From: Armatimonadota bacterium
Lineage (GTDB): Bacteria; Armatimonadota; UBA5829
Assembly (NCBI GenBank): GCA_012522555.1
Contig: JAAYKG010000139.1
Location: 1-41,631, forward strand
Reading direction: 5' to 3'
Length of the DNA: 41,631 nt
Each line of letters begins with the position of its first letter. The stretch's first letter is position 1. The position numbers and the translations under genes were made by a program. Shown one piece after another: positions 458 to 17,941 of this stretch. The notes under the pieces are model-generated. The model saw nothing but the letters and a program-made list of their open reading frames with translations, was not told the DNA's origin and did not search any database.

Positions 458-3400
458 CTATGGATGCAGAAGCCCTAGCTCGTTCTGTATCCACGTCACA
501 TCAGCGAGTATCTTGCAACACGCAGGATTCTCGCAAGTATTCGCAATGCCCGTTCCTGCTCCGCCTACCAGCGGTTTCGTCGGGGCAAAGATCTCGATGC
601 AGTGGTTCTCCACCAGCAACTGGAAGTCCAGTAACTTCTCTCCGGCGAGGCTGGTATTGCCTTGCTCAATGAGTCCAATGATCTCATCGAGGTCCGCCTG
701 CATCTTTAGGTAAAGAGCCTCATCAGATATAACCGGAACCTGATGGCTGCCCAAAGGCAGTTGATGGAACAAGGCCAGCAGCTTTTTAAGATCAGGCAAG
801 CTGGCATCAACTCTAAACGAGAACGCCTCTGCGTGAGAGATGGTCGGCGGCTTGGTTCCGCCCTCATCCCACGGCGACAACGTATCGTAGTAGACGGTGA
901 TGACAAATGTCGTCCCCGGAATCTCATACATCAAAGGCCACCACAACTGCATCTTCGGCCAGATTTGGATGACATCTTCACCTGGGAAGACATCAGGACA
1001 ATCGGTGGACTGATCCATGTGTTTCCGCAGGGTTACCTTTGTCAAAGTATACGGAACCTGCTCCCCTGCGGCCTTCACCCAGTTGCTCCACTGGCTGTCG
1101 CCAGGATTGATGGCAAATACGCCAGGCACAGCAGTAATGGTGTCAGGACCGATACCGGCGAACCCTTTTTGGACGCTATTTGTGGTATCGCAGGTCAACC
1201 CGCAGAACACCTGTTTCAGAGTAGGCGGACAAATAACCACCAACGCATCGCATGTCCCCGTGGTGACCGTTTTCTCGCCACAGACTCCATCCTGCCGCGC
1301 CATTCCGCACGCTGAGAACTCGTTGAGCCAGTTGCTGATCCCAGCAGGACACAACACGGCCTGGTCGAAGAGAAGCGGCCCAAACACATGACAGACCCGC
1401 TGGCCGGGCTTGAGAACAGCGCTGCCGTTGAGAGCTTGCAGTTCGGCAAGCATAGCAGCGTTGACATCCACTCCCGTCCCAGGAATCAAGGCGTTGGGCG
1501 TAGCTATCTTCGGATCGATAAAGCTCGGGCACGGAGTTGTTCCAGCGCCTGTGAAGTCGATATCCACCTCCCCAGTGTTGATAACACAGGTTTGGAAGAA
1601 CGCATTCGTCTGCGGATGCATTGGGTCGCCCGCGTCGAGTATCTTGACCGGGTTGGTCATTGCCTCATCGACATCGACCCATTTCTCGCACGCAATACTG
1701 GCAACCAGCAAATCGACCGTTGCGACAGCCGGGCCTGCAGTAATGGTTGAACCAAGTGCGCAGACTCCAGATGCTGACGCCGAGTTGACGATGTCATCGA
1801 TTTGACCGATGACCGAGAAGTCCGCTTTGGTCTTCACCTTACAAATAACGCACGCCTCCGCGCCGATCGCCAGGCTGCCGACGTTCCACGATCCACTGTT
1901 GATGAAACACGGAACGGGTGTGCCGTTGACCTTGCATTCCACACAACTGTCGAATGCAGCGCTGGGCGGGAGTGTATCAGTAACCGTGATGTTGTCTATA
2001 TTCATCGACCCGATGTTTTTCACACAGATCTTAAAATAGACGTCGCTGCCGGCTACCGCCTGAACGTTCTCGGTGAATGGCCCATCCGCAGAACAAGACA
2101 CCAGTTTGGTTATCTCCAAGCGGCACGGACAGCATATCTCGACGGTCGCCGAGCAGCCCTCAGTTAAGACCTGTTCACCTCTATCGGCAGGCAGGCACAC
2201 ATTGGCGTCTGTAGCAAGCCCGCACGCAGTGAAGATGTTGTCATAGGTCGACTGCGTTTTGCAGAGTTCCTCTTCGTCGTAGGATGTGGCGACCACGACG
2301 CAAACCGATCCTCCAGCCGGCAGGGTTCCATTGGTCAATTGATTCAGGAATGCCTGAGAGATGCTGACAGGATTGGTTGCGGGAGTCGTCGACACGAGCG
2401 TTATGCCCGTTGGCAGGTTGTCGAGAAGAGAATCCGCGAAATGCTCCGCGCAATCTCCTTTTGTGAAGTCAACTGCAATATCCCCTGTGTTATTGATACA
2501 CAGCTTGTAGTAGACCGTCTTGATGCCCGCAGTACACGTCGGGCCTCCGAGGTCAAGGAAGTTGGTGGCGTTGGTAAAGTCGGTGCTGTCATTAACCAGC
2601 TTGCTGCACTCGATCCTCGGAACCAGCACGTTCACAGTGGCGCTGGATGGCCCTGCGTTTGCTGTGATACCTGAGGTAACGCCGACACCGACGGCGCTCG
2701 CTGTATTGGTGGCGTCGACGGCAGTGCCGAATATTGAGAATACAGGGTTCGTCTGAACCTTGCAGTAGAATGTCTGGCTGGCGCCTACGGCGAGATTGCC
2801 GACAGAAATGGAGCCGGGAATAGTATGGTCACCGGTGCAGCATTGCTCGCAAGGCAGCAGGGCGGCGTTGTCATCGGTAAAAGTGTCGGTGATGACCACG
2901 TCTTTCAGGTCATCGCAGCCAGTGTTGGTAACGGTGAGCTTAAAGCAAACGTAAGCCCCCCGCAAAGCGGTGGTCGAAGATCCGTATACGCCATTGGCGC
3001 AATCCGCCTCCAAAGTCGAACAAGCCACCTCTTTTGTTATGGTAAGATCCGGCCGACAACAAACGTTGACGGTTGTTGTGCACGTTCCGGTCGTCACAAT
3101 CAGCGTCTCCGGGCAGATGCCATCGCCTTTCGGCGCTCCGGAAGCGACGAAATCGTTCGTAATCGTGCGCGTCTCGTTCTTGCACAGTGCGCACTTGTCG
3201 AAGTTAATCGGGCCGACAACCGCACAGACGGTTGCTCCGACAGCCAGGCTGCCTGTAGCAAGCTGGGGCTGCGCTCTGAACAGAGCACACACATCAACCG
3301 GCAACCCGGAAATCCCGGCAAGCGTGGTGTCCAGCAGGGAATTGGTAATCCCGCAGGGGCCAGTTGTGCCGAAATCGACAGGAGTCTCACCGTTATTGGT

Positions 3401-5779
3401 GATACATAGTCTGTAGTAGACCGGCGCCACATTGTCGCCTTCGCACGGAAGATCGAGGGTGGTGGTCGCATTTGTAAAGTCGGCACTGGCGCTGACCAGG
3501 CTTGCGCAAGTGATAGACGGGATAAGAATATTAACCGTCGCACTGACTGGGCCGGCGGATGCAGGCAGGCCGGAACTCACCCCAGTCCCGCTGACACTCG
3601 CCGTGTTTGTAGCATCAATGCTGGTTCCTGTGGTGGAGAATGTCGGGTTGGTCCGGAACTTACAATAGTAGGTCTGGCTTGCGCCAATCGCAAGGTCGCC
3701 TACATTGATGGTCCCCGGAATAGTGTTTGCACCAGTGCAGCACGACGAACACGGCAGCAAAGCCGAGTTCTGATCCGTGATACTATCCGTGATAACCACG
3801 TTTTCAAGATCGTCACAGCCGGTGTTTGTCACCACGATCTTGAAGCAGACATATCCGCCAGGCAGGGCATTAACCGAGTCTTGATAGTCGCCTTGCGCAC
3901 AATCACTTGTTTCAGTTGCGCAAGCGACCTGCTTGGTTATCTGAATATCAGGCTGGCAGCATACGTTGACCGTGGTAGTACACGTGTCGGTGCTTACCAA
4001 AGTAGAGCCGCAATCGCCCAGGTTGGCAAGCCCGGTGGCTTTGAAGTCGTTGGTAATGCTGGTTGCGTCGTTCTTGCACAGAGTACATTTGTCGAAACCG
4101 AGCGGGCCTACAGTGACGCAAACAGTCGCTCCCGGAGCCAATATACCGGTAGCCAACTGCGGCTGCGCTCGGAATAAGGCGCACACATTGGCAGGCAAGC
4201 CCGAAATCCCCGTAAACGCATTGTCCAACAGCGAGTCCGTTATTCCACATGGGCCTATTGTCCCGAAATCAATCGGAACCTGTCCATTGTTGGTAATGCA
4301 CAATCTGTAGTACACTTGTGCAATATCGCTGCCACAAGGCAGGTCGAGCGTGCTGCTGTTGTGCGTGAAGTTGGGATTATCATCGACCAGCGTTGTGCAG
4401 ATGATCGACGGTGTCAACACGCTGACTGTCGCAAAATCAACCGCCGTAACCGTTGTTCCGGTGAATTCCCCGTTGCCGGTTGCGGTTGCTGTGTTGATAC
4501 AATCGGCGGCGATCGACGCATAGCTGCAGGTTTGGCTTTTTGTTTCTCCTGAGGCCAAATTCCCGATGACTATGTTTCCACAATCGGTCGCCCCTCCGCT
4601 GCATCCCGTATCCGTCACTGTTACGTTGATGAGATTCTCACTTCCGCAGTTGGTGACGTCAAGCTTAAAGTAGACGGGATTGCCAGCAAGTATATCCACA
4701 TGGGACACCTTGTGATATGTCCCAGTTCCGTTGTTTATCAAATCGACAGGTGTGCCACCCTTAGTCAGTGAAATCTGGAAAGAGTTGGCGTTGGCATTGA
4801 CGACATAATACAACGTCGATGTGTTTATACCGGTTGTTGTGATTATACTGTCGAATTTGACTTGATCGCCGTTGAGGAGTCCGTGTGCATTCGCTTGCAC
4901 AGCATCAGAGCTGCTGTCGAAGCTCACAGGAACCTCGACGAGAGGCACCCACGGGCCATTGGGGGAGCACGCGACCTGTTTTGTGACGGATATGCACGCG
5001 TCGCAAGTGAGACTTATCACCTGTTCCGTGGTATCCTCATCTGTCAGGTCGCCAGGGCCACCGCTTCTGGTCGTCAATACGCAGGGTTTGCCGGGCCCTC
5101 CCCCGGGATATGCTGCTCGGATGCCACATACCTTGACCTCGATGTCCTTCTCGGTTCCCGGATAGTTCGGCGGAGTTCTCGGTCCTTTGAACCACGTAGC
5201 AGTCACACCAGCATACGGCAAGCCGCCCTTAGTGACGCTTATCTGAGGATCGATCCCACCGTTCATATCCGCAATTGTGATCTTAAAGGTTTCGGTGAAC
5301 GTATTGGGATTGGTCTGGTCTACTCCAAAAAACAGAACATATTCTTCGTAATCCGTATCACTGAACTGTTGCTGGAGTATTGCCGGCGGCGACTGGAAGC
5401 TGGTAAGTATGTTACCATCGTCGTTTGAATCCCAGGCAATGCGTTCGTCCGGGAGTCTAAGCCCTATATACAAGCAATCCGTTGCGCAGTCATAGGTCCA
5501 ATAGACCGCTTGCACATTGAACCCGGATGGCGAAAACTTCGCCGGCGGAACTAGAAAACAGACCTCTCCCATCGGCGCATCCATGCAGCCGGGTGGATTG
5601 GTGTTGAAGCGCGGATCGGTTATATTCTGGTCGGTGGTATCCACCTGCGAGAACACTCCCGGCCCAACGAAATCAGCGACCACATGGCCTGTGAACGTGA
5701 CAGTAGCGGCTGTGGTCGGCATTGTCAGTGCCGCGAACAATACCGCGGCTACAAATACAATGCAATATTTCACATTCAT
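458..5779 (-). CDS. Giant secreted cysteine-rich DUF11-like repeat protein with novel C-terminal domain
   Basis: The protein has 1773 residues. The start is the ATG at 5779, because it follows GAGGAGAAATGAGGAC and opens a signal peptide (residues 1-25, cleavage near PTTAA). An upstream in-frame extension lacks both. Residues 25-260 form a secreted N-terminal domain I do not recognise. Residues 264-1516 are four tandem units of about 300 residues. Each unit has a DUF11-like module (ITKxVxC...FKxxVTNxG...VxxTD) and a second module (YYRLCITNNG...), with paired Cys (CC) at the boundaries. Residues 1520-1773 match the C-terminus of the neighbouring protein at 6246-8636. DUF11 proteins are typically surface proteins or adhesins of bacteria and archaea. 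Many cysteines suggest disulfides outside the cell. The gene has its own promoter and a leader of about 390 nt. Surface or adhesin role is inference; anchoring is unknown. Confidence 0.85.
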   Translation of the reverse strand: MNVKYCIVFVAAVLFAALTMPTTAATVTFTGHVVADFVGPGVFSQVDTTDQNITDPRFNTNPPGCMDAPMGEVCFLVPPAKFSPSGFNVQAVYWTYDCATDCLYIGLRLPDERIAWDSNDDGNILTSFQSPPAILQQQFSDTDYEEYVLFFGVDQTNPNTFTETFKITIADMNGGIDPQISVTKGGLPYAGVTATWFKGPRTPPNYPGTEKDIEVKVCGIRAAYPGGGPGKPCVLTTRSGGPGDLTDEDTTEQVISLTCDACISVTKQVACSPNGPWVPLVEVPVSFDSSSDAVQANAHGLLNGDQVKFDSIITTTGINTSTLYYVVNANANSFQISLTKGGTPVDLINNGTGTYHKVSHVDILAGNPVYFKLDVTNCGSENLINVTVTDTGCSGGATDCGNIVIGNLASGETKSQTCSYASIAADCINTATATGNGEFTGTTVTAVDFATVSVLTPSIICTTLVDDNPNFTHNSSTLDLPCGSDIAQVYYRLCITNNGQVPIDFGTIGPCGITDSLLDNAFTGISGLPANVCALFRAQPQLATGILAPGATVCVTVGPLGFDKCTLCKNDATSITNDFKATGLANLGDCGSTLVSTDTCTTTVNVCCQPDIQITKQVACATETSDCAQGDYQDSVNALPGGYVCFKIVVTNTGCDDLENVVITDSITDQNSALLPCSSCCTGANTIPGTINVGDLAIGASQTYYCKFRTNPTFSTTGTSIDATNTASVSGTGVSSGLPASAGPVSATVNILIPSITCASLVSASADFTNATTTLDLPCEGDNVAPVYYRLCITNNGETPVDFGTTGPCGITNSLLDTTLAGISGLPVDVCALFRAQPQLATGSLAVGATVCAVVGPINFDKCALCKNETRTITNDFVASGAPKGDGICPETLIVTTGTCTTTVNVCCRPDLTITKEVACSTLEADCANGVYGSSTTALRGAYVCFKLTVTNTGCDDLKDVVITDTFTDDNAALLPCEQCCTGDHTIPGSISVGNLAVGASQTFYCKVQTNPVFSIFGTAVDATNTASAVGVGVTSGITANAGPSSATVNVLVPRIECSKLVNDSTDFTNATNFLDLGGPTCTAGIKTVYYKLCINNTGDIAVDFTKGDCAEHFADSLLDNLPTGITLVSTTPATNPVSISQAFLNQLTNGTLPAGGSVCVVVATSYDEEELCKTQSTYDNIFTACGLATDANVCLPADRGEQVLTEGCSATVEICCPCRLEITKLVSCSADGPFTENVQAVAGSDVYFKICVKNIGSMNIDNITVTDTLPPSAAFDSCVECKVNGTPVPCFINSGSWNVGSLAIGAEACVICKVKTKADFSVIGQIDDIVNSASASGVCALGSTITAGPAVATVDLLVASIACEKWVDVDEAMTNPVKILDAGDPMHPQTNAFFQTCVINTGEVDIDFTGAGTTPCPSFIDPKIATPNALIPGTGVDVNAAMLAELQALNGSAVLKPGQRVCHVFGPLLFDQAVLCPAGISNWLNEFSACGMARQDGVCGEKTVTTGTCDALVVICPPTLKQVFCGLTCDTTNSVQKGFAGIGPDTITAVPGVFAINPGDSQWSNWVKAAGEQVPYTLTKVTLRKHMDQSTDCPDVFPGEDVIQIWPKMQLWWPLMYEIPGTTFVITVYYDTLSPWDEGGTKPPTISHAEAFSFRVDASLPDLKKLLALFHQLPLGSHQVPVISDEALYLKMQADLDEIIGLIEQGNTSLAGEKLLDFQLLVENHCIEIFAPTKPLVGGAGTGIANTCENPACCKILADVTWIQNELGLLHP
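1229..4990 (-). repeat. Four tandem coding units (about 300 residues each) inside the giant protein
   Basis: Protein-level tandem repeats correspond to residues 264-607, 612-908, 912-1216 and 1220-1516. Each begins with I(T/S)(I/V)TK.V.C and has a second half that begins at residues 460, 757, 1056 and 1362 and contains a conserved VDFG/VDFT stretch and a CxLCKN-like motif. Units 2 and 3 are the most alike. Unit 1 is longer because of an inserted segment at residues 284-360 (bases 4700-4930). Confidence 0.8.
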
Positions 5780-5892
5780 GTCCTCATTTCTCCTCTCTTT
5801 CTCTCTAAATTGTGGAATGACTACAATGTAGTAACGCCAAAGGCATGCCCTGGCCCTCGCGGCTGAGGATGCAGTATTGACATCTCGGCCGG

Positions 5893-5913
5893 CACAAGGC
5901 ATCATGCCTTGTG
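5893..5913. promoter_or_regulatory. Perfect 10-bp inverted repeat in leader of the giant gene
   Basis: CACAAGGCAT and its exact complement ATGCCTTGTG are separated by one base. The element lies 114-134 bases upstream of the ATG at 5779, inside the predicted 5' leader. It could fold as an RNA hairpin or act as a protein-binding palindrome; the sequence alone does not decide. Confidence 0.5.
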
Positions 5914-6016
5914 TGAGAGCGAAGGATTCCTTACCTGGAACGGGCACGTGAGGAGAAACACGATGTAGCGCGGATGCGGTAGCCCCTCTCAAGTGGAAAC
6001 CATACTGCGCTATTGC

Positions 6017-6066
6017 GGCGGGGAGGCGGTAACCTCCCCGCCCGTCTCACAGACGGACCCGTCTGT
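6017..6066 (-). promoter_or_regulatory. Cluster of alternative hairpins in the long leader of the giant gene
   Basis: Three stems can be read. A 10-bp GC-rich stem pairs 6017-6026 with 6033-6042. A 6-bp stem pairs 6042-6047 with 6051-6056. A 7-bp stem pairs 6049-6055 with 6060-6066. The last two share bases and exclude each other, as in attenuators. The third stem is followed on the plus strand by TTTTCT, so it could also stop plus-strand transcription. No known riboswitch class was recognised in the 5780-6170 leader. Confidence 0.4.
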
Positions 6067-6176
6067 TTTTCTATTTAATTGTCCCGCAGACACCCCATCT
6101 CTAGTCTGCTTTTCAGCCACAATCTGCAATAGTCATCTTTTTGCCAGCATAACCTATGGCCGATTGCTTCACAGGG

Positions 6177-6205
6177 ATTATGATATCATTTTGAAGCCAC
6201 GTCAA
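6177..6205 (-). promoter_or_regulatory. Promoter of the giant secreted-protein gene
   Basis: On the minus strand TTGACG (6200-6205) and CATAAT (6177-6182) are 17 bases apart, each 5/6 to the housekeeping consensus. Transcription would start near 6170. That gives a leader of about 390 bases before the ATG at 5779, unusually long. Confidence 0.6.
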
Positions 6206-6245
6206 TACCAGTTTTTATATATTTCTACGCGGCCCTGTTGCATTT

Positions 6246-8636
6246 TTAGTGTATGAACACCCCCAGTGCTTCCGCGATATACTCAGCGTCGGCTTGAATT
6301 TTGCAGCACGCAGGATTCTCAGCGGTATTACGTATACCCAACTCAGCCCCACATGCACCACAATCGACCGTAACGCAGTTGTTTTCGACCAGGAGAATAA
6401 AGTCCAAAAACATCTCAGCTATCTTCGGATCGGATGGCCCCAGCCTCTCCAACGAGCTTTTTATCTCTTCGATATCGGCGAGCAACTTGTTATACAAAAC
6501 CTCACTGGAGATCAGCGGGACCTGGCAACTGCCGGCTGGTAGCTGGTGGAACAGCTTGATGATCCCCTTCAGGCTGTCGAGATCGGCATCCACCTGCCAC
6601 GCCCACACATCCTGTCGGGGAGTATATGGCGCCTCCTCTAATTTGCTATAAATGGTCAGGGTCCATTTGGTGCCTGGAAGCTCATACATCAATGGCCACC
6701 ATGTGCGGATGTTTCTACCAGACTGCTGCACCGATTTACCCCCAATAGGGGCGGTGCAAACATACTCAGGCTCCGGCACGGCTTTGCTCAGAGTTATGTT
6801 GGTGAGGCTGTAAGGCTTGCCCTCCGCCGCAGCGGTTACATAGTTGGGCCACATTGGCCCGCCTGGGCCGATCGCCAGTACTCCCGGCACAGCCTCTATC
6901 ACATCCGACCCCACGCGGCCGTTAAAGCCGGCAAATTTCTGGTTCGGCTCGCAACTTCTACCCGGATAGGCCTGCTTTAACATAAAGCTCTGGTAATCCG
7001 GATCGATCACAGGCTGCTTGGGTGTGATAGTCAGATCATAGAGTATCGGGGACGGCGCCCCTTCTTCACGCTCGAATCGTACGATTACCTTCAAATAGCG
7101 ACCGACCGGAATCAACTCAAGATCATCACCGCTCGAGATTACCTGCTCTGGAGAAAAAGTGACGGAATCGGAAGAACTCTGCACGCTGACAGTCAACGCA
7201 GCGCCCGGATACTCGCCATCATCCGGATCGCCGGGTTGATCGTTCCACGTCACTTTTTCCCACCCGGTGTTTGCGGCATGGCTGTCGTAGATGATTGTCC
7301 AAGCGCCAGAGTTTGTGGCAATGCACTCACGGATTGAGCCGGCCATATTGTTGTATGCGTAGTGGCCGTCGGTATACTGCAGATTGACTTGCTTGATAAC
7401 GGTATTGGTTATCGGGCTGATGCACTGGATTTTCTCATCTCGATAACAAGCCACCCATACAAGGCCGTCCGAATCGACGGATATCCCGGATGGCTCCCAC
7501 CCCACGCTTATAGTCGCTTTCAGGTTCTGGTTTGCATCATATCGAGTTACAGTGTTTTGACCGGAGTTGGTGACCCAAACATCGTTATCGGGGGTGCACA
7601 CGGCCCCACGACTCCCGACCAAGCCATTGTCCTTCATCGTCCAACCGATATTTCTGGTAACGACATTTATCTGGCTCATCCGGCTTTGGGTGTAGCCTGT
7701 AACATACAGATGATCCAGATTGTCCAGCGCGAGGCCATAGGCCATGTGCGACAGATAAATTCTCTCTATCCCAAGCGTGCTGAGATCAAGCCGCACGACA
7801 TCGCCGGGATCTCTGCCCGCCGACCACAAAGCCCCATACTTATCGATAACCGCCCCATAAGGCCTGTGGGGAGCTACATTCACAACCTTATCGAAAGTTA
7901 TCTGTGAGGGTGCAGCGGGGAGTTTTGCGCCTGATACGTGCAAATACCTCTTCTTGCCGGAGTTGCTTACCCATATATCATCGTTCGCATCACATACCAG
8001 CGAACTCGGAGACGTTCCGAAGAAGTCATCCGGGTCATAGTGGCCGGGGTTATCGCCGGGATAATATGCCGCCTCCTTGCCATCTATGAGCACAACTTCA
8101 TACAACACACACTCATCCTGGCCCCACGGCAGAATCTCGTCATGACTGATGACCCCATCGCCGTTTGCATCTTTACACGTCTGACACACCCCATCGCCGT
8201 TGCGGTCTATCCACTGGCCCGCCTCAAGCAATCCGATCTTGACAACAGTACCGGCGGTCCTATTGGCAACCCAGCAACTGCCGTCCGAGCAGACTGCGGT
8301 TCGGGATGGCCACCCGAAATTGTCCGCCCCGGAAGAAGGCAGTTTAGGAAGATCTGGAGGCACCACCCAATACCGGCCGAGTTCCCGGCTCGTTTGTGTG
8401 CATACTTTTGAGATGGAGCCATTTTCGTTTGGCACCCACAAAAACGACAGTGTTTTACAATCGTCGAGGTTTAACTGCAGTTGATCCGGTGTTGAATCGC
8501 ACTGCACCTGTTGCAGGTTTCCAGAGCGAAAATCCGTATTTGTGGTATAGGTACGTTGCGCAATGCTGCTGCCGGAGACAGCCATTGCGATCGCCAGGAC
8601 AAAGCCCAGGCGTATAAAACTGGCCTTAAATGTCAT
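6246..8636 (-). CDS. Secreted NHL/Vgb-like beta-propeller protein with the shared novel C-terminal domain
   Basis: The protein has 796 residues. The start at 8636 is preferred because AGGGGAG lies about 7 bases upstream and the product opens with a signal peptide ending near SGSSIAQ. The ATG at 8642 is an alternative with tighter spacing. Residues 35-440 show repeated blades of the type VWVTNSGQNTVTRYD and GLVWVACYRDEKI, typical of NHL/Vgb/SMP-30-like propellers. An acidic insert at about 143-168 (DRNGDGV..DANGDGVISHDE) resembles Ca-binding EF-hand or dockerin loops. Residues 445-540 look like a beta-sandwich. Residues 551-796 align with the end of the 1773-residue neighbour (AVPGV, WWPLMYE, LFHQLP, ENPACCKI motifs). 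It lies directly downstream of the Tad operon but has its own promoter. The stop is TAA. Extracellular location is likely; ligand and function are unknown. Confidence 0.85.
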   Translation of the reverse strand: MTFKASFIRLGFVLAIAMAVSGSSIAQRTYTTNTDFRSGNLQQVQCDSTPDQLQLNLDDCKTLSFLWVPNENGSISKVCTQTSRELGRYWVVPPDLPKLPSSGADNFGWPSRTAVCSDGSCWVANRTAGTVVKIGLLEAGQWIDRNGDGVCQTCKDANGDGVISHDEILPWGQDECVLYEVVLIDGKEAAYYPGDNPGHYDPDDFFGTSPSSLVCDANDDIWVSNSGKKRYLHVSGAKLPAAPSQITFDKVVNVAPHRPYGAVIDKYGALWSAGRDPGDVVRLDLSTLGIERIYLSHMAYGLALDNLDHLYVTGYTQSRMSQINVVTRNIGWTMKDNGLVGSRGAVCTPDNDVWVTNSGQNTVTRYDANQNLKATISVGWEPSGISVDSDGLVWVACYRDEKIQCISPITNTVIKQVNLQYTDGHYAYNNMAGSIRECIATNSGAWTIIYDSHAANTGWEKVTWNDQPGDPDDGEYPGAALTVSVQSSSDSVTFSPEQVISSGDDLELIPVGRYLKVIVRFEREEGAPSPILYDLTITPKQPVIDPDYQSFMLKQAYPGRSCEPNQKFAGFNGRVGSDVIEAVPGVLAIGPGGPMWPNYVTAAAEGKPYSLTNITLSKAVPEPEYVCTAPIGGKSVQQSGRNIRTWWPLMYELPGTKWTLTIYSKLEEAPYTPRQDVWAWQVDADLDSLKGIIKLFHQLPAGSCQVPLISSEVLYNKLLADIEEIKSSLERLGPSDPKIAEMFLDFILLVENNCVTVDCGACGAELGIRNTAENPACCKIQADAEYIAEALGVFIH

Positions 8637-8827
8637 TGCCATACTCCCCTCTAGGTGAATCCGCTTTCCCACGCGGGAATAGCTCACAGTTATCGAGCTG
8701 TTGAGGTATGCCCGCTCTCGCGCACGCGCCTGATAGCAAAAAGCCATCAAGCACATTTTCGCGCGGTCGCCGTGGGGAATGGGAAGAAGAGGTACGGCAC
8801 TGCGCATCCTTATTCAGATACAGACGC

Positions 8828-8916: not shown

Positions 8917-9792
8917 TTAGAGTAGCACTTTAAATAGCTTAAGAACCCCCGGCAAAAGCACTACAACGAACAACGAAGGCATAATGCACAGCGCCATCGG
9001 AAAAAGGAGTTTGAGTGGTAGTTTCGCCGCTTCCTCGCGTGCGCGAAGGTTGCGCTGAACCCGCAATCCGGAGGCTTGATCCTCGAGAACCTCGGCGATG
9101 CTGGCTCCGAGTTGTTCGGCCTGATACAGTGCGGCGACAAACATACTCAATTGCGAAACGCCGACCCGTTTTGATGTGTTTCGCAGGGCGTCCATTCGAC
9201 GCTGCCCACTTGCGATGTCATCGAGGGTCCTTTTGAACTCCTCAGCTACAGGCCCAGACATCCGGCCCACCACTTGATCCATCCCCGCATCGAGACCCAG
9301 GCCGGCTTCGACACATACCACCAACAAATCGATCGCATCCGGCAGCATTCGGACGATTTTTTTCCGCCTATCAGCTATTAAATGTGAGACTACCGCCTTT
9401 GGCAACAAAAGACCGACAATCACACCGCCGATCACATACACAAACCACAGGCTCAATTGCACCTTAAAGGCCACACATATCCATATTGCAGAGATGGTGA
9501 ACAATGCCGCACTTGCAATTCGATAGGCCACAAAATTGACCGGACGCAGCTTCAATCCGGCACTATCCAGCTCCAGTTCGATGTTCTTGAGCGCCGTGCT
9601 GGGCACGCTGCGCGAAACGACATCGGTTATTCTACTCCATAGCGGAACGACCATCCTCTGCCACAGAGAAGAGTCCAACTGCCTGCCGATTCCCAGTCGT
9701 TCATCTCGAATTGCACTTTCGCCGGCGCGAGTCATGCCCAGGATAAACAAAAATACGGTTGCCGCACACAAAATACTAATGAGTAGAGGCAA
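8917..9792 (-). CDS. tadC: Tad pilus assembly membrane protein TadC (GspF-like)
   Basis: The protein has 291 residues with an N-terminal membrane segment, an amphipathic region, further membrane segments near residues 95-135, and a C-terminal hydrophobic pair. The core carries the type II secretion F-domain pattern (MLPDAIDLLVVCVEAGLGLDAG, split by family-typical residues). Its length and its position after tadB fit TadC, an inner-membrane platform subunit that works with TadB and the CpaF ATPase to assemble Flp pili. The start is TTG at 9792, preceded by GAAGGTGG. The gene follows tadB after 16 bases and is last in the operon. I see no strong terminator after it, so some readthrough into the propeller gene is possible. 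Confidence 0.9.
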   Translation of the reverse strand: MPLLISILCAATVFLFILGMTRAGESAIRDERLGIGRQLDSSLWQRMVVPLWSRITDVVSRSVPSTALKNIELELDSAGLKLRPVNFVAYRIASAALFTISAIWICVAFKVQLSLWFVYVIGGVIVGLLLPKAVVSHLIADRRKKIVRMLPDAIDLLVVCVEAGLGLDAGMDQVVGRMSGPVAEEFKRTLDDIASGQRRMDALRNTSKRVGVSQLSMFVAALYQAEQLGASIAEVLEDQASGLRVQRNLRAREEAAKLPLKLLFPMALCIMPSLFVVVLLPGVLKLFKVLL

Positions 9793-9808
9793 TTGCGATA
9801 TACCACCT

Positions 9809-10768
9809 TCAATAGTCGATCTTGAGAATATTACGAATGATGAAACCGCCCACTATCTGCAGAACTATCGCCCCAGCAACAAAACGCAGCCCCACCGGAT
9901 CAGTGAAAAGGACCTTCACATATGCCGGATTAAGCACGTAAATCAACCCCGCAAGCACAAACGGCAGGATGAATAATATTACCCCGGACATGCGGCCTTC
10001 GACGGTCAACGCGGACACCTCTCTGTCGAGCCTGACACGATCCCTTATCACCCCGCTGATATTGTCCAGCACCTCCGACAGACTGCCGCCGAGCTGACGA
10101 TTCACGACAACAGCAATGGCCGACAACTCCAGATCATAGCTGCCCATCCTGTCAACCATTCGCGCAAGGGCGTCTTCGAGCGGGATGCCAACCTCAGTAT
10201 CAGCCAACATCCGACCAAACTCCTCAGATATTGGCGCCGGCATCTCCTCTTGCACCAGCGCGGCAGCTCGCTCGAAGGCGGCGCCGTGTCGAACTGCCGA
10301 GCTTATGAGGGTCAAAGCATCAGGCAATTGGCCGTTAAATGCGGCTAACCGACGCGCGCATTTGTTTTGGAGATAAGCCCAGGACACAATTATGCCCACC
10401 AGCAAACCGATAAATTGCGAGCCTGAAAACTTCAACATCAACCCAAATAATAGAGCCAACACAAGACATACGCCGCTGGCGAGCGCCACGAATTCGCTTG
10501 GCCGCAGATTTAGCCCCGCTCGCTCCAGCTTTACCATCAAACCACGCGCCCAATAATGGCCGAAAACTACATTATCCAACCAGTTGAAGAGCGCCTTATC
10601 TTCTGATTCATCGGAATCGGCGGGTTGACTGCCCACAACCGCACGGCGCTTTCTTGCTCGAATAATCGCACGATCCCCCACCCACCAGATTATATATCCA
10701 ACGATGAGGCATCCCCCCGCAATCGCAAGGGCCAACGCGAAATCCGAATAGTTGAAAGCAATCGTCAT
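9809..10768 (-). CDS. tadB: Tad pilus assembly membrane protein TadB (GspF-like)
   Basis: The protein has 319 residues: an N-terminal membrane helix (about 10-30), a basic cytoplasmic stretch, paired helices near 90-130, and the GspF-type cytoplasmic domain with LPDALTLISSAVRHGAAFE and the QLGGSLSEVLDNIS segment. Two C-terminal helices follow. TadB is the partner of TadC in the inner-membrane platform of the Flp pilus machine. The gene starts five bases after the cpaF stop, so translation is probably coupled, and only a weak ribosome site is seen. It ends in a TGA followed by the TTG-started tadC, showing that TGA is a functional stop in this genome. Confidence 0.9.
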   Translation of the reverse strand: MTIAFNYSDFALALAIAGGCLIVGYIIWWVGDRAIIRARKRRAVVGSQPADSDESEDKALFNWLDNVVFGHYWARGLMVKLERAGLNLRPSEFVALASGVCLVLALLFGLMLKFSGSQFIGLLVGIIVSWAYLQNKCARRLAAFNGQLPDALTLISSAVRHGAAFERAAALVQEEMPAPISEEFGRMLADTEVGIPLEDALARMVDRMGSYDLELSAIAVVVNRQLGGSLSEVLDNISGVIRDRVRLDREVSALTVEGRMSGVILFILPFVLAGLIYVLNPAYVKVLFTDPVGLRFVAGAIVLQIVGGFIIRNILKIDY

Positions 10769-10773
10769 ATCAG

Positions 10774-12114
10774 TTACCGTTTCCAGCGACTCTTGCCAAA
10801 TATCTCATCGGCGCAAAGCGAAATTCCATCTTTTGACAGCCTCTCCACAAACACGGGACGGAAACCCGTGGGCTTATGCTCTCCGATTACTGCTCCAGTG
10901 TTGGGGTCTGTGCCTGTTTGATCGAAGATGAAGACGTCCTGCATCGTGATGACGTCGCCTTCCATGCCCCTCACGTCGGCTATCTGCACGATCCGTCTCG
11001 ATCCGTCGCGGAGCCGCGCCTGGTGAATAATAAGATGAATTGCGGACGATATCTGTTCGCGGATGGCCTTTGACGGCAGTTCGGTGCCGGCCATCAGAAC
11101 CATCGTTTCCAGCCTGGAAAGCGCGTCTCTTGGACTGTTTGCGTGAGCGGTGGAAAGCGACCCTTCATGGCCGGTATTCATCGCCTGCAGCATATCAAGC
11201 GCTTCTCCCCCTCGCACCTCGCCCACTATGATCCTGTCCGGCCGCATACGCAGTGAGTTTCTAACGAGCTGGCGGATAGACACCTCCCCGTGGCCTTCGA
11301 TGTTGGGAGGCCGACACTCCAGGCGGACGACATGGTTCTGCTGCAACTGAAGTTCGGCGGCGTCTTCAATAGTGACGATGCGCTCGTCGCGGGGTATAAA
11401 CCTGCTCAACGCATTGAGGGTCGTCGTCTTGCCGCTGCCGGTTCCTCCGCAAATCATAATCGTGATCTTGGCTTCGACGGCGGCTTTCAAGAAATCGCGC
11501 ATTCCAGCCGACATCGTCCCATTTTCGACCAATAGATCCGGGGTGAGCGGTTCACGGGAGAATTTCCGAACGGTGAGCGTTGGCCCGTCTATAGCCAACG
11601 GAGGAATTATCACATTAACCCGCGACCCATTCGGGAGGCGCGCATCCACCATAGGGCTGCTCTCGTCTATCCGCCGCCCCAGCGCATGCACGATACGCTC
11701 TATTATACGCATCAGGTGAGCATTGTCCTTGAAAACCTTGTCATGCCGAAACAACTTGCCCTCTCGTTCGACATAGATTTTGCTCGGCCCATTTACCATA
11801 ATTTCGGTGACATCCGGATCCCTTAGAAGCTCCTGTATAGGGCCGTATTCCGATATCTCGGACTCGACGTCCTCGGCAACCGCCCGAATTTGGTCTGCAG
11901 TAAGATGGATCGATCTAACAGCGGCGAGCTTTTTGACTGAATCAATCGCCAATTGGACTCGTGCGGCAGGGGTCAGTTCGACTAACTCAACAGCATCAAT
12001 CTCACCGGTGATTTGCTTGTGAGTCGCGAGCACAAGCTCTGCGAATGCAGTATTGCTCATCCCTGCCTGCCTGGCCGGATCGGAGATGTTGAATAGAGCA
12101 TCTACTGATGTCAC
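10774..12114 (-). CDS. cpaF: Tad pilus assembly ATPase CpaF/TadA
   Basis: The protein has 446 residues with a GTG start. It is a type II/IV secretion hexameric ATPase that powers Flp pilus extension. Visible motifs: the Walker A loop GGTGSGKTT (about 223-231) preceded by the [14 protein letters not shown]-domain, the Asp-box region [13 protein letters not shown], and the Walker B/His-box region [16 protein letters not shown] followed by [16 protein letters not shown]. The length is normal for CpaF. It follows cpaE by seven bases, which suggests translational coupling. Nothing suggests degradation. Confidence 0.95.
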
Positions 12115-12121
12115 AATAGCC

Positions 12122-13261
12122 TCATCTTTCTTCTGCCGCTAATGCGTCGAGGGTGAAAGTTTCCTCGTCGAGCTTGTCGGCGAGCTTTCGCAGGGCTTTT
12201 GCGAGTTTGGTGTTGCCCCGCATAGGGTCGCCCGCCAGGTTGCGCTGATTTGGAAGCAGTGCCGCCACGTTCAGACCAATCGCCTGTTCTATCTGTGACT
12301 GCGTCAGGCTATCGTGTCTTGATACCCTGTTGATTATCAACTTGATCTGCTCCCACGGGATATATCGAGGGGCGACGGTATCAATCAGCTTCTTTGCATC
12401 CCTCACAGTCTGCACCTCAAATCTGTTTGCCACGATGAGCAGTTCGTGACATAATGAAACAACTCTTAGCACAGGCTCATGCATAAGAGGGGGCAGATCG
12501 ATGACCACATATCGATAGTTTTTCTTAAGCTCGTGTATGATGCTTTCCAGCAGATCCCCGCTCAGTTTATCGAGCGGACCGATCTTCGTCGCTGCAACCA
12601 GGACCTTTAGCCCGGATTCATGCTCGGACATATACGACTCCAACAGTTCCGGGTCGATTTTCTCGGTGGTCAACTCCGAAAGCGGCTTTGGCTCAGCGAT
12701 TCGCATCATTGTGGATATGTCGCCAAACTGCATATACATATCCAACAGCACGGCTTTGCCGGGATATTTTTGGTGCATGCAGAGCCCCAATCCCGATGCG
12801 ACCGTGCTCTTGCCGATACCACCTCTTCCACCGGTAACCGATATAATGCGGCAAGGAGGGGCTGGAGGTGGAAGGGGAGGACCGCATATATCTTTGATCA
12901 CGGAAGCCAGAGCCGAGTCGATCTCCGCAGTGGAAATACACGCTGACGCTCCCGCCAACATAGCCTGCCTGGTCAGAGTCGACCCCACATCACCGTTGCC
13001 CACCAACACGCCTTTCACCGCCGGCACGTATTGCCGGATCATCCGGGTCGTCGCCAGGCCGTCATATATAGGAAGATCGAGCATCACCACAGCCACATCG
13101 TGTTTGCGCGCGCCGGCCATATGCACAGCTTCCAAGCCATCAACCGCGACCCCGGACACCACAAAATCCCCAGCAGCAGTCAGCACCTGACGCAAATGAT
13201 CGCGTGCGGCTCGATCCTTAGCTGCTATTAAAACACGTATATTGGGCTGTCTTTCACTCAT
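12122..13261 (-). CDS. cpaE: Pilus assembly protein CpaE/TadZ (receiver-like domain plus MinD/ParA ATPase)
   Basis: The protein has 379 residues. Residues 8-125 fold like a response-regulator receiver, with an aspartate in VVMLDLPIYDG (D62), but the later conserved Thr and Lys positions are not kept, so phosphorylation is doubtful. Residues 137-365 form a MinD/ParA-type ATPase with the deviant Walker A GGRGGIGKST and the Walker B-like VVIDLPP. CpaE/TadZ places the pilus machine, typically at a pole. The two domains are joined by a proline-rich linker near 128-136. The gene sits 21 bases after cpaC and just ahead of cpaF, the usual Tad order. It ends in TGA. Confidence 0.92.
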   Translation of the reverse strand: MSERQPNIRVLIAAKDRAARDHLRQVLTAAGDFVVSGVAVDGLEAVHMAGARKHDVAVVMLDLPIYDGLATTRMIRQYVPAVKGVLVGNGDVGSTLTRQAMLAGASACISTAEIDSALASVIKDICGPPLPPPAPPCRIISVTGGRGGIGKSTVASGLGLCMHQKYPGKAVLLDMYMQFGDISTMMRIAEPKPLSELTTEKIDPELLESYMSEHESGLKVLVAATKIGPLDKLSGDLLESIIHELKKNYRYVVIDLPPLMHEPVLRVVSLCHELLIVANRFEVQTVRDAKKLIDTVAPRYIPWEQIKLIINRVSRHDSLTQSQIEQAIGLNVAALLPNQRNLAGDPMRGNTKLAKALRKLADKLDEETFTLDALAAEER

Positions 13262-13282
13262 AACTACTTCACTATCTCAGTT

Positions 13283-15040
13283 CTATTCTTCTGGAACGGG
13301 TATCGGAGCGTTTGCTCCTTTCTCAATCAGTTGAGGGGTCACAACGATAATAAGCTCTGTCTGTTTCTCCAGGAAATTTCTGCTTTTGAAAAGTTCTCCC
13401 AGAACAGGAATCTTGCTCAACAGCGGAATCTCACTGATGAGCTTGATCGAAGCGCTGGAGAACAGCCCTCCTATAGCAAGCGATTGGCAGTTTTGCACGT
13501 GAACCGTTGTTGTCGCCCGCCGGACAGTTAGCGAGGGGACGAAGATGCCGCCGGTTTTCACCCCTGCGTTAGGGTCTCTGTCGACATCGCTGACCTCCGG
13601 AGTCACAGTCATCGATATTCGGTTGTCATCCCCTATCTTTGGCCGAACAGTCAGTTGTATGCCGAACGGTTTATATTGAACGGTCACGGAGGCGACTCCG
13701 ATGCTGGAGTTTTGCGCGACAGGAACCGGCATCTCTCCGCCAACCAGTATGCTCGCCGCGTGTCCATCAGCGATTAAAAGTTTCGGCTCAGATAGTATTT
13801 TGGCGTAGCTGCTGTCCACGAGCGCCCGAACTTGAGCGGCAAATGGCAGTCTGCTGAATGAGTTCGCGTTTGTCAGAGGCAGCCCGGCAAGGTCGGTGCC
13901 GGGTATGATGCCGCTGGCGTTTTCAACGGCAAAGAAAGGTTGATCTATGAACGTCCCGTTGAGGGACGACCCCCATTTGACTCCGAGTTCTTTGAGCTTG
14001 CTGCGATCGACCTCCAACACCTGCGCAGTGATCAACACCTGTTTGGCGGTGGCTATGTCAACATTGAGCACAGCAACAATGCGCGGCCCATTGGGAACCC
14101 GCCCGGAGAACACACTGCGAACAGCGTTTGTCTCCTCGCCCACCACCACCCCGCCAGGGTCATAAGTGGTCGCCTCGGTCCTCGCTCTGTCGATGGCATC
14201 GGGGGCGGCTATTTGTCCATTTCCGATGAAGTTTACCTGCGTGTCGCTGCGAACATTCGTGCCTGTAGTGGGCGCGGCCTGGATATCGCCAACCCACGCC
14301 GCGATGATATCGCGTATCTTAAGCACCTCTGTGGCTGTCGGCACTTGCCCGGAAACGAGCACAGTATTATCCGGAAGCTCTTTATAGGTGACGCACGGGC
14401 TGTCTATAATGGCGCGGAGAGATTCAATCAAGGCTTTAGCGGTAACCTCTTCCACTCTCACCAAATTTATGACCTTCAGGCCCGTGCCTTGAGCGATGTA
14501 TTCTGCTCTTTTGATCTGATCGTCATTTTTGGCGGTCCCGGAGAGCATGACACTGGTATCGTTTGCCTGAACACTTATTCTCGGCACCCCGATTTGGGCG
14601 GTAAGATCGCCGGCAATCGCTGCCGGATTGGGCTTGGGTTTTTCCGGTTTTGCGACAGTCACATAATACGTCGCCGGCTTATATACACTGTCCCAAATAC
14701 GGATAACCGCCCGGCCTTCGGATTTGGCGTTAAGAATAATCTCACTCTTTGACAGAACTACGATATCGACGACCTCAGGGGTATTAACCACGGCGCGAGT
14801 GATTTCTTTGCCATACAGCATAATCGACTCGCCCGGCTCCATTCGCTTGTTGGCGAACGCATGCGGCACATCGGACGGCGCACCCTGCCCTCCGATTTCC
14901 GCTGCTGCGGATGTGTCGGAATCAGGCTCAGCAGCCGATTGCGCAGTGACGGCCAGCGCAGATAATAACGTGAATATTATGATAGCAAAAACCACAGTCC
15001 AATAGCGCCTGTGCTCGCTGTGTATAGTATTTAACCTCAT
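13283..15040 (-). CDS. cpaC: Flp pilus secretin CpaC/RcpA
   Basis: The protein has 585 residues counted from the ATG at 15040, which follows GGAGG with 9-base spacing and opens a signal peptide ending near ALAVTAQSA. A TTG at 15085 would extend it by 15 residues without an equal ribosome site. Order: signal peptide; the pilus-formation N-terminal domain (about 45-130, including PGESIMLYGKEITRAVV); a BON-like segment near 155-200; then the secretin core with VQYKPFGIQLTVRPKIG and the C-terminal LIIVVTPQLI. It forms the outer-membrane channel of the Tad system, which implies a two-membrane (diderm) envelope. It lies between cpaB and cpaE. Confidence 0.93.
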   Translation of the reverse strand: MRLNTIHSEHRRYWTVVFAIIIFTLLSALAVTAQSAAEPDSDTSAAAEIGGQGAPSDVPHAFANKRMEPGESIMLYGKEITRAVVNTPEVVDIVVLSKSEIILNAKSEGRAVIRIWDSVYKPATYYVTVAKPEKPKPNPAAIAGDLTAQIGVPRISVQANDTSVMLSGTAKNDDQIKRAEYIAQGTGLKVINLVRVEEVTAKALIESLRAIIDSPCVTYKELPDNTVLVSGQVPTATEVLKIRDIIAAWVGDIQAAPTTGTNVRSDTQVNFIGNGQIAAPDAIDRARTEATTYDPGGVVVGEETNAVRSVFSGRVPNGPRIVAVLNVDIATAKQVLITAQVLEVDRSKLKELGVKWGSSLNGTFIDQPFFAVENASGIIPGTDLAGLPLTNANSFSRLPFAAQVRALVDSSYAKILSEPKLLIADGHAASILVGGEMPVPVAQNSSIGVASVTVQYKPFGIQLTVRPKIGDDNRISMTVTPEVSDVDRDPNAGVKTGGIFVPSLTVRRATTTVHVQNCQSLAIGGLFSSASIKLISEIPLLSKIPVLGELFKSRNFLEKQTELIIVVTPQLIEKGANAPIPVPEE

Positions 15041-15094
15041 CAATTGCAACCTCCAATACCCAACCGATTGCCTATGCGAAATCAACTCCAGTGA

Positions 15095-15943
15095 TTACTC
15101 GCTGACCACTTCCACCGTCTTTACGTTTCCTCGAATCACTTCCACCGTGGGTCGAGCTTCGGGGACAATCTCTGTGGTGGTCGAAAAACTGCCAATCATC
15201 GCCGGCGCAAGCCCTCCGCGCGCACTATTTGAGGTGGGATTCCCCTGTGCAGTCGCGGCCTGCCGAGTCTCTCTGACTACCACAGGCGCTTTAGACGGTG
15301 TTTCCTCAAGCGGTTCGTGGGTGATATCCTTAGGGTTGCGCAGAATAAGCCTGAGCTTGCCCTGCGATTCGGCGAGAGTAACCGCCTGGGCTTGATCCGG
15401 AGTCACTATCAAAGTGGCGGTTTTCCGATCCGGCTCCGCCTTTTCTCCCTCCCCCGCGTTTGCAGCAGGGCCGACTGCCAGCAGCTCAACGTTTTGCAAC
15501 AGGGTTTCGGAATAAGCGCGTTCCCCGCGAGTGTAGGTAGCAACCACATCGACTTTGTCTCCCGGCTGGGCGAACCCGCCTACGTTCGATACCGCATCCA
15601 CCCCTACGCTAACCGCGCGCATGCCATCCGGGACCCTTGCGGAAAGCCCTTTGGGGGCGAGCTGGGTCAGTTTGATCTGCTCGCCTTGCGCGAATTCGAT
15701 CCTGGCGATCTTTCCGACTACAGACTCGACTGCGACCGCTTCTTTGGCCGTTATGTCAAGCGCCTTCGTCGTCACCATTTCGCCGGTGATCAGTTCACCT
15801 CTCGCGATCGCGACTGCTGCCACCGTCGTCTGCACTTTGGGGCGTTCTTTCATGTTGGCGTAGACAATCACACCCGTGATCAGCCCGATAATTGCGGCCA
15901 GCAGCAGTATATTTTTCTTCGTCCAACCTTTACCCATACTCAT
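15095..15943 (-). CDS. cpaB: Flp pilus assembly protein CpaB/RcpC (SAF domain)
   Basis: The protein has 282 residues: one N-terminal membrane helix (about 10-28), an SAF domain (about 40-105), then the CpaB signature GMRAVSVGVDAVSNVGGF followed by PGDKVDVVAT. The C-terminal half is Ala/Pro-rich and probably periplasmic. CpaB works with the secretin in the outer part of the Tad machine. The ATG at 15943 follows GAGGTAGG; a second ATG two codons later is possible. It is 46 bases after tadG and 54 bases before cpaC. It ends in TAA. Confidence 0.92.
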   Translation of the reverse strand: MSMGKGWTKKNILLLAAIIGLITGVIVYANMKERPKVQTTVAAVAIARGELITGEMVTTKALDITAKEAVAVESVVGKIARIEFAQGEQIKLTQLAPKGLSARVPDGMRAVSVGVDAVSNVGGFAQPGDKVDVVATYTRGERAYSETLLQNVELLAVGPAANAGEGEKAEPDRKTATLIVTPDQAQAVTLAESQGKLRLILRNPKDITHEPLEETPSKAPVVVRETRQAATAQGNPTSNSARGGLAPAMIGSFSTTTEIVPEARPTVEVIRGNVKTVEVVSE

Positions 15944-15989
15944 CCTACCTCGCTAGACAAAGTCCGGTCGTGGGTTATATTCACGATAT

Positions 15990-17192
15990 CTAATTAGACA
16001 ATTGGGTGCCGAAATCGTAGATCATTACTTTGCTTATCATACTGGCCGCATACCTGGGTTTGGTGTTCAGACTCCACCTGACCCTGCCCTGGGACAGCAA
16101 CCCAGAAATCAAAACAAAGTCTACATCGCCCGTGTTTTCGTCATAACGTGTGACGAACAGCGGCGCAAAGCCTTTGACTCTATAAGACCCATCAGCCTGC
16201 TTGTTTTTTTTGTCCACTACAACAGCCATTAATATCCGCGCACTGTTGGGGTAGACACCACTCTGGCCAGCGCTTTTCCAGCTTTCATACCGCCAATAAC
16301 TCTCTACCCCCGGCTCAGAGCCGAACCTGTCGTACAATGCGTCGGCGGTGACGCTGTATAAGCTGGGATTATCCAAAGCCTTCACAGTATTTATCGACAC
16401 AGGAGCGTCCGGCCAAAAAGACTGCATTTCGGCTCCGAGCACGATTGATTCCCCGCGGTCGGATAGCCTCGTATAATAATCGCCGCCAGGCAAACCTATA
16501 GCCAATATCTCTACCGCTGCTCCGCTGCCGCCCGATTCGGTAAACGCCCCCACAACTCGCCCGCTCGCTTTTGTCCCTACGTGCGGTTCGTTGTCGGGAT
16601 CGATAGCTCGCCTGTCAATAGCCCACGGCACAAAATTGTATTCCAGGCGAGGGGTTGGATATAGCCTTGCGACTGCGTTTGCCTTGGTGGCTCGCTGGTT
16701 TATGCCCCATGCCTGCGAAAACGTGAGATCGACGGGGATCCTGCACTCCACCTGCATCGACACGTTATAATCTTTGTCGCCCTCAGCAATGACAACAAAC
16801 TTCGGATTCACTGTTTCATTAAAAATATGATGCCTCGACCCCACGCCAAAAAACAACTGCGAACCGGGGTGCTCACCTGCCGTCAGGCTCACCTTTCGCG
16901 TGTCGGGGCCTGTTGTCATCTTGGGATATGCCGCAAACAGGTATCTGGAGATCGCCTCCATCTCAAAATCGACACTGGCTTTTTGGACATCGGTCTTGGA
17001 GTAGTTCTTTATCGCCACCAAAGACGACACTGCACACTGGTCGGCAATATTTTGAGCGTTTTGCTGGGCGACATAAAGCAGGCCGAGGTCGATTACGAGC
17101 GCGGCAATGGCAAGCAGCGCGGTGAGGGCTAGCGCCACCATGACCAGTACAGCGCCCGAACGAGTCCGGGTGATTTTTAGAACTTGCCTCAT
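15990..17192 (-). CDS. tadG: TadG-like pilus-associated protein
   Basis: The protein has 400 residues. Its N-terminus (about 10-40: SGAVLVMVALALTALLAIAA) is the TadG-type pseudopilin-like helix of the Flp-assembly TadG N-terminal domain. The rest is a long extracytoplasmic region without a recognised catalytic domain, and I see no von Willebrand MIDAS motif. TadG proteins are minor-pilin-like or envelope components of Tad systems. It starts 12 bases after tadE, with a GCAGGAA ribosome site. It is less conserved than the other Tad proteins, so the call rests on the N-terminus and the position. Confidence 0.8.
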   Translation of the reverse strand: MRQVLKITRTRSGAVLVMVALALTALLAIAALVIDLGLLYVAQQNAQNIADQCAVSSLVAIKNYSKTDVQKASVDFEMEAISRYLFAAYPKMTTGPDTRKVSLTAGEHPGSQLFFGVGSRHHIFNETVNPKFVVIAEGDKDYNVSMQVECRIPVDLTFSQAWGINQRATKANAVARLYPTPRLEYNFVPWAIDRRAIDPDNEPHVGTKASGRVVGAFTESGGSGAAVEILAIGLPGGDYYTRLSDRGESIVLGAEMQSFWPDAPVSINTVKALDNPSLYSVTADALYDRFGSEPGVESYWRYESWKSAGQSGVYPNSARILMAVVVDKKNKQADGSYRVKGFAPLFVTRYDENTGDVDFVLISGLLSQGRVRWSLNTKPRYAASMISKVMIYDFGTQLSN

Positions 17193-17204
17193 TTCCTGCC
17201 GCGC

Positions 17205-17651
17205 CTATTCCTTTATGTGGACCCCGACGCCCGTGAGTGTGACTTCATCGCCCAGCCCCACCAGCTTTCCTGCCACGGTATTGTGCTTGTATGTCAGGGT
17301 AACTTCCATGTTATACAGGGTCTGAGTGTCGGTCGATTGGTTTTGGCTATCGACAAAGGTATCTTCGTGCTGCGCAAACGACACATCCAGTTGATTTTCA
17401 TCAAGCCCAAGACTTTTCGCGCCTTTTTCGACCCGATCCGTCACTGTCCCCTGGTCGGTGCCTAACGCGTAGCTTCGTGCTGCGTTTTTGGCGAGATGCG
17501 ATAGCGCCAGAGAACTTCTGAGTATCAACCCCATATCGATCATCCCGAACACGAGCAGCATCAACACGCTGAGGACCATCGCCATCTCGACCATAGCGGC
17601 CCCACGACGTGATTTCAGGCGTACAGGATTATGGGTGTGATCTGTTTGCAT
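17205..17651 (-). CDS. tadE: TadE-like pseudopilin
   Basis: The protein has 148 residues. After a basic leader it carries RRGAAMVEMAMVLSVLMLL, with the expected prepilin cleavage after Gly17, a Glu at +5 (E22) and a single hydrophobic helix. This is the TadE-like pattern processed by the TadV peptidase. The remaining 110 residues are extracellular and end in a beta-rich tail. The ribosome site is weak, and a strong hairpin separates it from flp, so it is probably made in smaller amounts than the major pilin. Confidence 0.87.
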   Translation of the reverse strand: MQTDHTHNPVRLKSRRGAAMVEMAMVLSVLMLLVFGMIDMGLILRSSLALSHLAKNAARSYALGTDQGTVTDRVEKGAKSLGLDENQLDVSFAQHEDTFVDSQNQSTDTQTLYNMEVTLTYKHNTVAGKLVGLGDEVTLTGVGVHIKE

Positions 17652-17668
17652 AGCGCACTATCCGGTCA

Positions 17669-17696
17669 GGCGCGGCAACCCGCCAGCTGCCGCGCC
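17669..17696 (-). terminator. Hairpin between flp and tadE (partial terminator or processing site)
   Basis: A perfect 9-bp GC-rich stem pairs 17669-17677 with 17688-17696 around a 10-nt loop, ten bases after the flp stop. There is no U-run, so it may act as an mRNA-stabilising or processing hairpin rather than a full stop. This would raise flp over the downstream genes. Confidence 0.55.
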
Positions 17697-17706
17697 CTTG
17701 TTCGAT

Positions 17707-17889
17707 CTAGCCACCGGAGCCGGCCGCTTCCACAGCCCCACCGGCCGTCATCAGCTTCGCCTTTATAGACTCTCCCAAAGTAGTCCACGCGCCAATAGCC
17801 ACGATTGCAACCAAGGCCAGAATAAGGGCATACTCCACCATGGTGACACCCTCTTCCTCCTTGATAAACCTCGTCAACTTTCGCAACAT
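17707..17889 (-). CDS. flp: Flp-type major pilin
   Basis: The protein has 60 residues. The leader MLRKLTRFIKEEEG ends in Gly14. The mature protein begins VTMVEYALILALVAIVAIGA, with Glu at +5 and Tyr at +6, the diagnostic Flp motif. A short Gly/Ala-rich tail follows. It is the polymerising subunit of the Tad pilus and is cleaved by the TadV peptidase encoded just upstream. The ribosome site is strong (AAGGAGG). A stable hairpin lies just downstream. Only one flp copy is seen in the window. Confidence 0.93.
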   Translation of the reverse strand: MLRKLTRFIKEEEGVTMVEYALILALVAIVAIGAWTTLGESIKAKLMTAGGAVEAAGSGG

Positions 17890-17941
17890 CCTACACCACC
17901 TCCTTTTCGTGGTCTCTCTCCCAACAAATTATCAATCGGAT

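Follow-up and report, generated by a model that had tools for sequence, protein, structure and literature searches.

Two large exported proteins encoded next to each other in an Armatimonadota genome end in the same domain and are fusions. In this study, we show by computation that this domain of about 245 residues is a genuine unnamed family with an informative operon context, and that it occurs most often by itself, as a small exported protein. The window, that is the whole stretch of DNA analysed (41,631 nucleotides), is contig C43 of genome G000 (2.78 Mb, 260 contigs). A sequence-only reading of the window had proposed that the C-termini of the two proteins are homologous and their N-terminal parts unrelated. 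BLASTP confirms both statements: residues 1592-1842 of the one protein align with residues 610-851 of the other at 44% identity over 255 columns (E 8e-51), and all other segments match at chance level (E ~1 or worse). Every motif quoted in that reading is present in both translations, and the two copies lie where it had placed them (Table 1).

Table 1. Features of the two domain fusions and of their neighbourhood in the window.
Feature	Position	Strand	Basis or remark
DUF11/DUF7507-repeat exported giant, domain C-terminal	458..5992	-	1844-aa ORF; likely start ATG ~5779; orthologs in G234 (L007/L039) and G223 (full-length)
DUF11 protein N-terminus, signal-peptide-like, MNVKYCIVFVAAVLFAALTMPTTAA	5705..5779	-	hydropathy and reading only
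Domain copy 1, whole, LKQVF...ELGLLHP	461..1219	-	BLASTP, profile, alignment
Copy 1, N-terminal half, beta-rich by pattern, without confident structure; WWPLMYE motif	815..1219	-	alignment, half-profile
Copy 1, C-terminal half, predicted helical; ENPACCK motif	461..814	-	alignment, half-profile; modelled on copy 2
NHL-type beta-propeller exported protein, domain C-terminal	6246..8807	-	853-aa ORF; likely start ATG ~8642; ortholog in G234 (L007/L039)
Propeller protein N-terminus, signal-peptide-like, MAMTFKASFIRLGFVLAIAMAVSGSSIAQ	8556..8642	-	hydropathy and reading only
Domain copy 2, whole, LKQAY...EALGVFIH	6249..6980	-	BLASTP, profile, alignment
Copy 2, N-terminal half, beta-rich by pattern	6597..6980	-	alignment, half-profile
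Copy 2, C-terminal half, four-helix bundle in AlphaFold2 model (of window:6249-6611)	6249..6596	-	mean pLDDT 74, pTM 0.71, four-sequence alignment
Tad/Flp pilus gene cluster	8917..18445	-	setting of the fused genes rather than of the domain family

The passenger parts of the two proteins consist of DUF11/DUF7507 repeats and of NHL/SGL-type propeller repeats, respectively. Their signal-peptide-like N-termini appear when translation is started at the internal ATGs; signal peptides and C-terminal anchors were judged by hydropathy and reading only throughout. The adjacent Tad/Flp cluster encodes two T2SSF proteins, a CpaF-like and a TadZ-like ATPase, a secretin, RcpC/CpaB, two TadE/Tad-domain proteins and a prepilin-peptidase-like protein. 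It is adjoined by a GlpT/UhpC-type major-facilitator transporter gene (18812-20146), a homolog of which (L045:15135-16466) is found near the Tad and domain cluster of genome G223.

Concerning the identity of the domain, scans of both window proteins and of all 27 domains collected here gave no match to it in Pfam or NCBIfam at E<=1, in agreement with the sequence-only reading, which knew no named family that fits. Single-member matches to DUF7507/DUF11-type repeats trace to passenger sequence left in one alignment row. Among PDB sequences, phmmer found no match at E<=1, and the best profile match had an E value of 0.27 over 46 residues. A search of the literature for the setting of the domain returned nothing relevant.

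A six-sequence profile search over 291 Armatimonadota genomes revealed 27 members. They are spread over 12 genomes, every one of which belongs to the class of the window's genome, and the latter carries two further copies besides the window pair. The alternative that the pair is only a local duplication is thereby ruled out. Both window genes have separate orthologs in G234, a second genome of the genus, with domains 71% and 77% identical (L007), and the pair is therefore older than the split of the two genomes. The survey in depth covers the Armatimonadota; the general genome collection was scanned with one single sequence, which found only the close relative G234. An origin from mobile elements or phages was considered and discarded, as no relatives occurred among the viral contigs, plasmids and phages searched.

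The sequence-only reading took the domain for a module at the C-terminus of large secreted proteins. It is indeed a real and reusable module of exported proteins, but not one peculiar to large ones. In 14 of the 27 members the protein consists of a signal peptide and the domain and nothing else; the small protein encoded at G000:C58, for example, has 289 aa. One more member, with the same neighbours as the small genes, is cut by a contig edge. C-terminal fusions account for 11 members, whose passengers are DUF11/DUF7507 repeats, a propeller, M6-peptidase/SdrD_B proteins and others. The C-terminal position is nearly general: 26 of the 27 members end 0 to 8 residues after the domain, and the remaining, extended one continues for 208 residues. 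That member (L049:6799-8205) is the sole one with sequence beyond the domain, and it has also lost Cys206, Cys229 and Cys230. All 26 visible N-termini are signal-peptide-like by hydropathy. None of the members has a C-terminal hydrophobic anchor: within the last 45 residues, the mean hydropathy of an 18-residue segment reaches 1.28 at most. On the best domain tree, which contains two long-branch members of uncertain placement, there are about five changes between fused and other forms, at least two of them forced by well-supported branches. Because a single fusion clade is rejected (AU p 8e-6), fusion, or loss of the passenger, must have occurred repeatedly.

The alignment of the 27 members defines a conserved unit in two parts. 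Motifs of the N-terminal half are AVPGVLAI.PG..W.N, K..P, QC.DVF, NIR.WWPLMYE.PGT.W.L and VH.E.W.W. The C-terminal half contains VDADL.SL..LL.LFHELPFG.DEVPLISDE.LY, a gapped helix pair, DACI and GTGIANT.ENPACCKLLAD.EYI. When profiles of the two halves were run separately over the 291 genomes, each recovered the same 27 places and otherwise chance matches only; the additional weak ones (E 0.003-0.009), to a histidine kinase, an unrelated exported protein and an isomerase-like protein, are attributed to chance. Since both half-profiles return the same places, the halves do not occur apart, and two separable, independent domains are ruled out within the phylum. Read from the alignment, Cys79 is effectively universal, shifted by one column in two rows. 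In the columns of Cys206 and Cys230 (copy 2 numbering), 26 of the 27 members have cysteine at each, and the extended member has it at neither; four members lack Cys229, the other residue of the CC pair. This one double loss suggests a disulfide between Cys206 and Cys230.

Structure prediction, which the sequence-only reading had recommended, succeeded for one half. With a four-sequence alignment, AlphaFold2 gave a pLDDT of 41 for the full-length domain, too poor to use. The C-terminal half alone was predicted as a four-helix bundle in the best model, the other four models scoring 51-56 in pLDDT, and a helical, four-helix C-terminal half is thus supported by modelling. A fold search of this model against the PDB gave no match at E<=0.001 and returned generic four-helix bundles only (best E 0.64). 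The assignment of the N-terminal half as beta-rich is a reading of sequence pattern.

Among named families, FIMAH (PF22888) comes to mind, as the C-terminal half is likewise a predicted four-helix module ending exported proteins. By hhalign, 79 columns of this half align collinearly with FIMAH, whose alignment holds seven sequences (score 24.65, P 7.4e-4, probability ~25%). Scores were lower for the N-terminal half (11.9), for 200 column shuffles (maximum 15.7) and for five Tad-protein families (maximum 13.9), and 2 of 200 block shuffles exceeded the FIMAH score. The FIMAH profile itself matched none of the 27 members at E<=1 and nothing in G000. We regard the resemblance as no more than suggestive. 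Unlike FIMAH, the domain has an obligate N-terminal half of about 130 residues, the ENPACCK loop and conserved cysteines. With type IX CTDs and PEP-CTERM or LPXTG tails it shares the role of a C-terminal module common to otherwise unrelated exported proteins, but it is about 245 residues long, often makes up the whole mature protein, and shows neither a hydrophobic tail nor a profile match. The DUF11/DUF7507 repeats of surface proteins, which several fused members, the window giant among them, carry as passengers, are a separate family N-terminal to the domain. In kind, we place the domain with the C-terminal and free-standing modules of exported proteins that are already known, and do not take it for a new mechanism.

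The small genes reside in a recurrent gene neighbourhood. In 11 genomes, at one locus each, the gene that immediately follows the small gene encodes a LolA-like protein of about 220-270 aa, with weak DUF2092/DUF4412 matches only and no confident Pfam match. Most of these loci have a divergent PQQ/BamB-like propeller gene upstream. In a phylum-wide search, strong LolA-like matches (E<=6e-63) were found in exactly the 12 domain-bearing genomes out of 291, with the next best match at 8.6e-15 (family example L059:784-1596 and G000:C58, besides 11 further genomes). Over the 28 genomes of the class this co-occurrence has a Fisher p of 3e-8, a value which overstates independence, the genomes being related. 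An UshA-like metallophosphatase with a C-terminal cytochrome c554-type multihaem segment, scoring below the NF041198 cut-off, has an ortholog in 10 of the 12 domain genomes, and the usual order is small gene, LolA-like gene, UshA-like/cytochrome gene. Such fusions are encoded at L040:7687-9159, L043:10160-11623 and L076:720-2177; in G223 the LolA-like and UshA-like genes stand at the start of a contig, so that what lay upstream of them is missing. There are also four small copies (G000:C137, G234:C181, G220:C33, G220:C41) that do not adjoin the LolA-like gene, and the operon partner is therefore not needed by every copy.

Several further observations concern the surroundings of these operons. 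Distant UshA-like homologs elsewhere in the class (e.g. G224, G225, G223:C4, G240) carry one in-frame TGA, a feature that would agree with the known UshA-like selenoprotein family (PMC13188914). Three genomes have, beside the operon, genes for large exported proteins (1026-1399 residues; L076:2989-7188, L077:1560-4943, L078:4758-7838) that share a C-terminal 'VTGISS'-like motif and precede or adjoin propeller genes. An exosortase-like gene pair and several PEP-CTERM-like tails were recognised by eye in the window's genome or its relatives (L061:3251-4749, L061:11837-12391, L077:5020-5664, L078:1-1233), and one PEP-CTERM-type profile matched above its cut-off (TIGR02595 in L059:3393-4760).

The proximity of the window pair to a pilus operon had led the sequence-only reading to propose surface anchoring, sorting or docking and to raise a tie to one envelope system. 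For the family as a whole such a tie exists with the small envelope operon containing the LolA-like gene, and not with the Tad pilus. Among the 28 genomes of the class, RcpC/CpaB is present in 6 of the 12 that carry the domain and in 5 of the 16 that lack it, 11 in all (Fisher p 0.44), and on this distribution we reject a pilus-specific module as the role of the family. The pilus link holds for the DUF11 giant. No genomes but G000, G234 and G223 have its N-terminal region, and all three encode the protein beside Tad genes. The orthology spans two families: the protein of G223 is orthologous over its full length, with about 33% identity in the repeats and 45% in the domain. Adjacency and orthology are what speaks for the domain as a docking or tip module of the Tad pilus, an explanation we consider very unlikely: RcpC is missing from half of the domain genomes, five Tad-bearing genomes of the class have no copy, Tad adjacency is seen in three genomes and for fused members only, the small copies and the remaining fusions are located elsewhere, and no copy of the domain is near the Tad loci of G241 and G243. 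One contig of G223 (C19:1-35000; L076, L044, L045) brings together, in about 35 kb, the LolA-like and UshA genes, the Tad cluster and three genes for domain fusions. As a description of the family, a C-terminal, pilus-linked anchoring module is too narrow; an anchoring, sorting or docking role of some kind is what we infer.

To our reading, at a probability of about 0.4, the domain is an exported, two-part docking or binding module, most commonly a small and usually LolA-linked protein, that was repeatedly fused C-terminally to large exported proteins. The beta-rich N-terminal half would pack with the four-helix C-terminal half to form an oxidised extracytoplasmic module, which the Cys206-Cys230 disulfide may hold together. 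The small protein would bind a component of the cell envelope, and the co-inherited LolA-like protein is the first candidate for its partner. Fused copies would then fix their DUF11, propeller or peptidase passengers to this same site of the envelope, one DUF11 giant of this type being encoded beside Tad genes in three genomes, the window's included. A docking or binding function is the likeliest of the roles considered for the domain. Contact of the domain with the LolA-like protein or the cytochrome does not follow from their co-inheritance, and the sample is phylogenetically structured.

Three further explanations bear on the same evidence. The domain might bind a ligand such as a glycan, another polymer or a metal, acting alone in the small proteins and giving binding to the passengers of the fused ones. 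Near-invariant W48, W99, Y103, E104, H126, W130 and W132 in the N-terminal half are consistent with this, as are passengers that include repeat scaffolds, a propeller and a peptidase, and glycosidase genes adjoining some copies. The conserved aromatics may however belong to the core, there is no match to a carbohydrate-binding or other family, the N-terminal half is without a confident fold, and if the ligand is an envelope polymer this explanation overlaps with docking; we hold it possible but somewhat unlikely. A role in secretion or sorting, as a C-terminal signal of the type IX CTD kind that is removed once the outer membrane has been crossed, is less favoured by the evidence and in our view unlikely. 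Although the domain closes the protein in 26 of the 27 members, which have a signal peptide, and the passengers are unrelated, some 14-15 members would have nothing left to secrete. A cleaved signal is made less likely by these many members without cargo and by the one with 208 residues after the domain. Moreover, about 245 residues with near-invariant motifs are long for a signal, and the NCBIfam sorting-tail families do not match.

Finally, the conserved order of small gene, LolA-like gene and UshA/cytochrome gene, kept in most of the 12 genomes, together with near-invariant Cys, His and Glu residues, could point to an enzyme or a redox or metal-handling partner of the cytochrome, an activity that the fusions would deliver to the surface. 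We think this quite improbable, since the cysteines are arranged more like those of a structural disulfide than like a redox motif, the CC pair lacks Cys229 in four members, and the fused copies lie mostly far from the cytochrome gene.

The docking or binding module preferred here may be extended to an envelope docking system that is new: an exported 245-residue receptor-binding module and a dedicated LolA-like partner, mounting unrelated large proteins at one surface site. We consider this extension unlikely, and it is just as doubtful that such a system takes the place, in this Armatimonadota class, of the sortase, exosortase and type IX solutions known elsewhere.

The open papers searched say very little about the envelope biology of the Armatimonadota. 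The domain defined here is unnamed, exported and, within the phylum, restricted to one class, and it has a clear gene partner. What began as a domain of giant surface proteins without a known function thereby becomes a small system, consisting of a protein of about 290 residues, its LolA-like neighbour and a cytochrome. If the docking reading is true, this system would represent another way of attaching large proteins to the bacterial surface.
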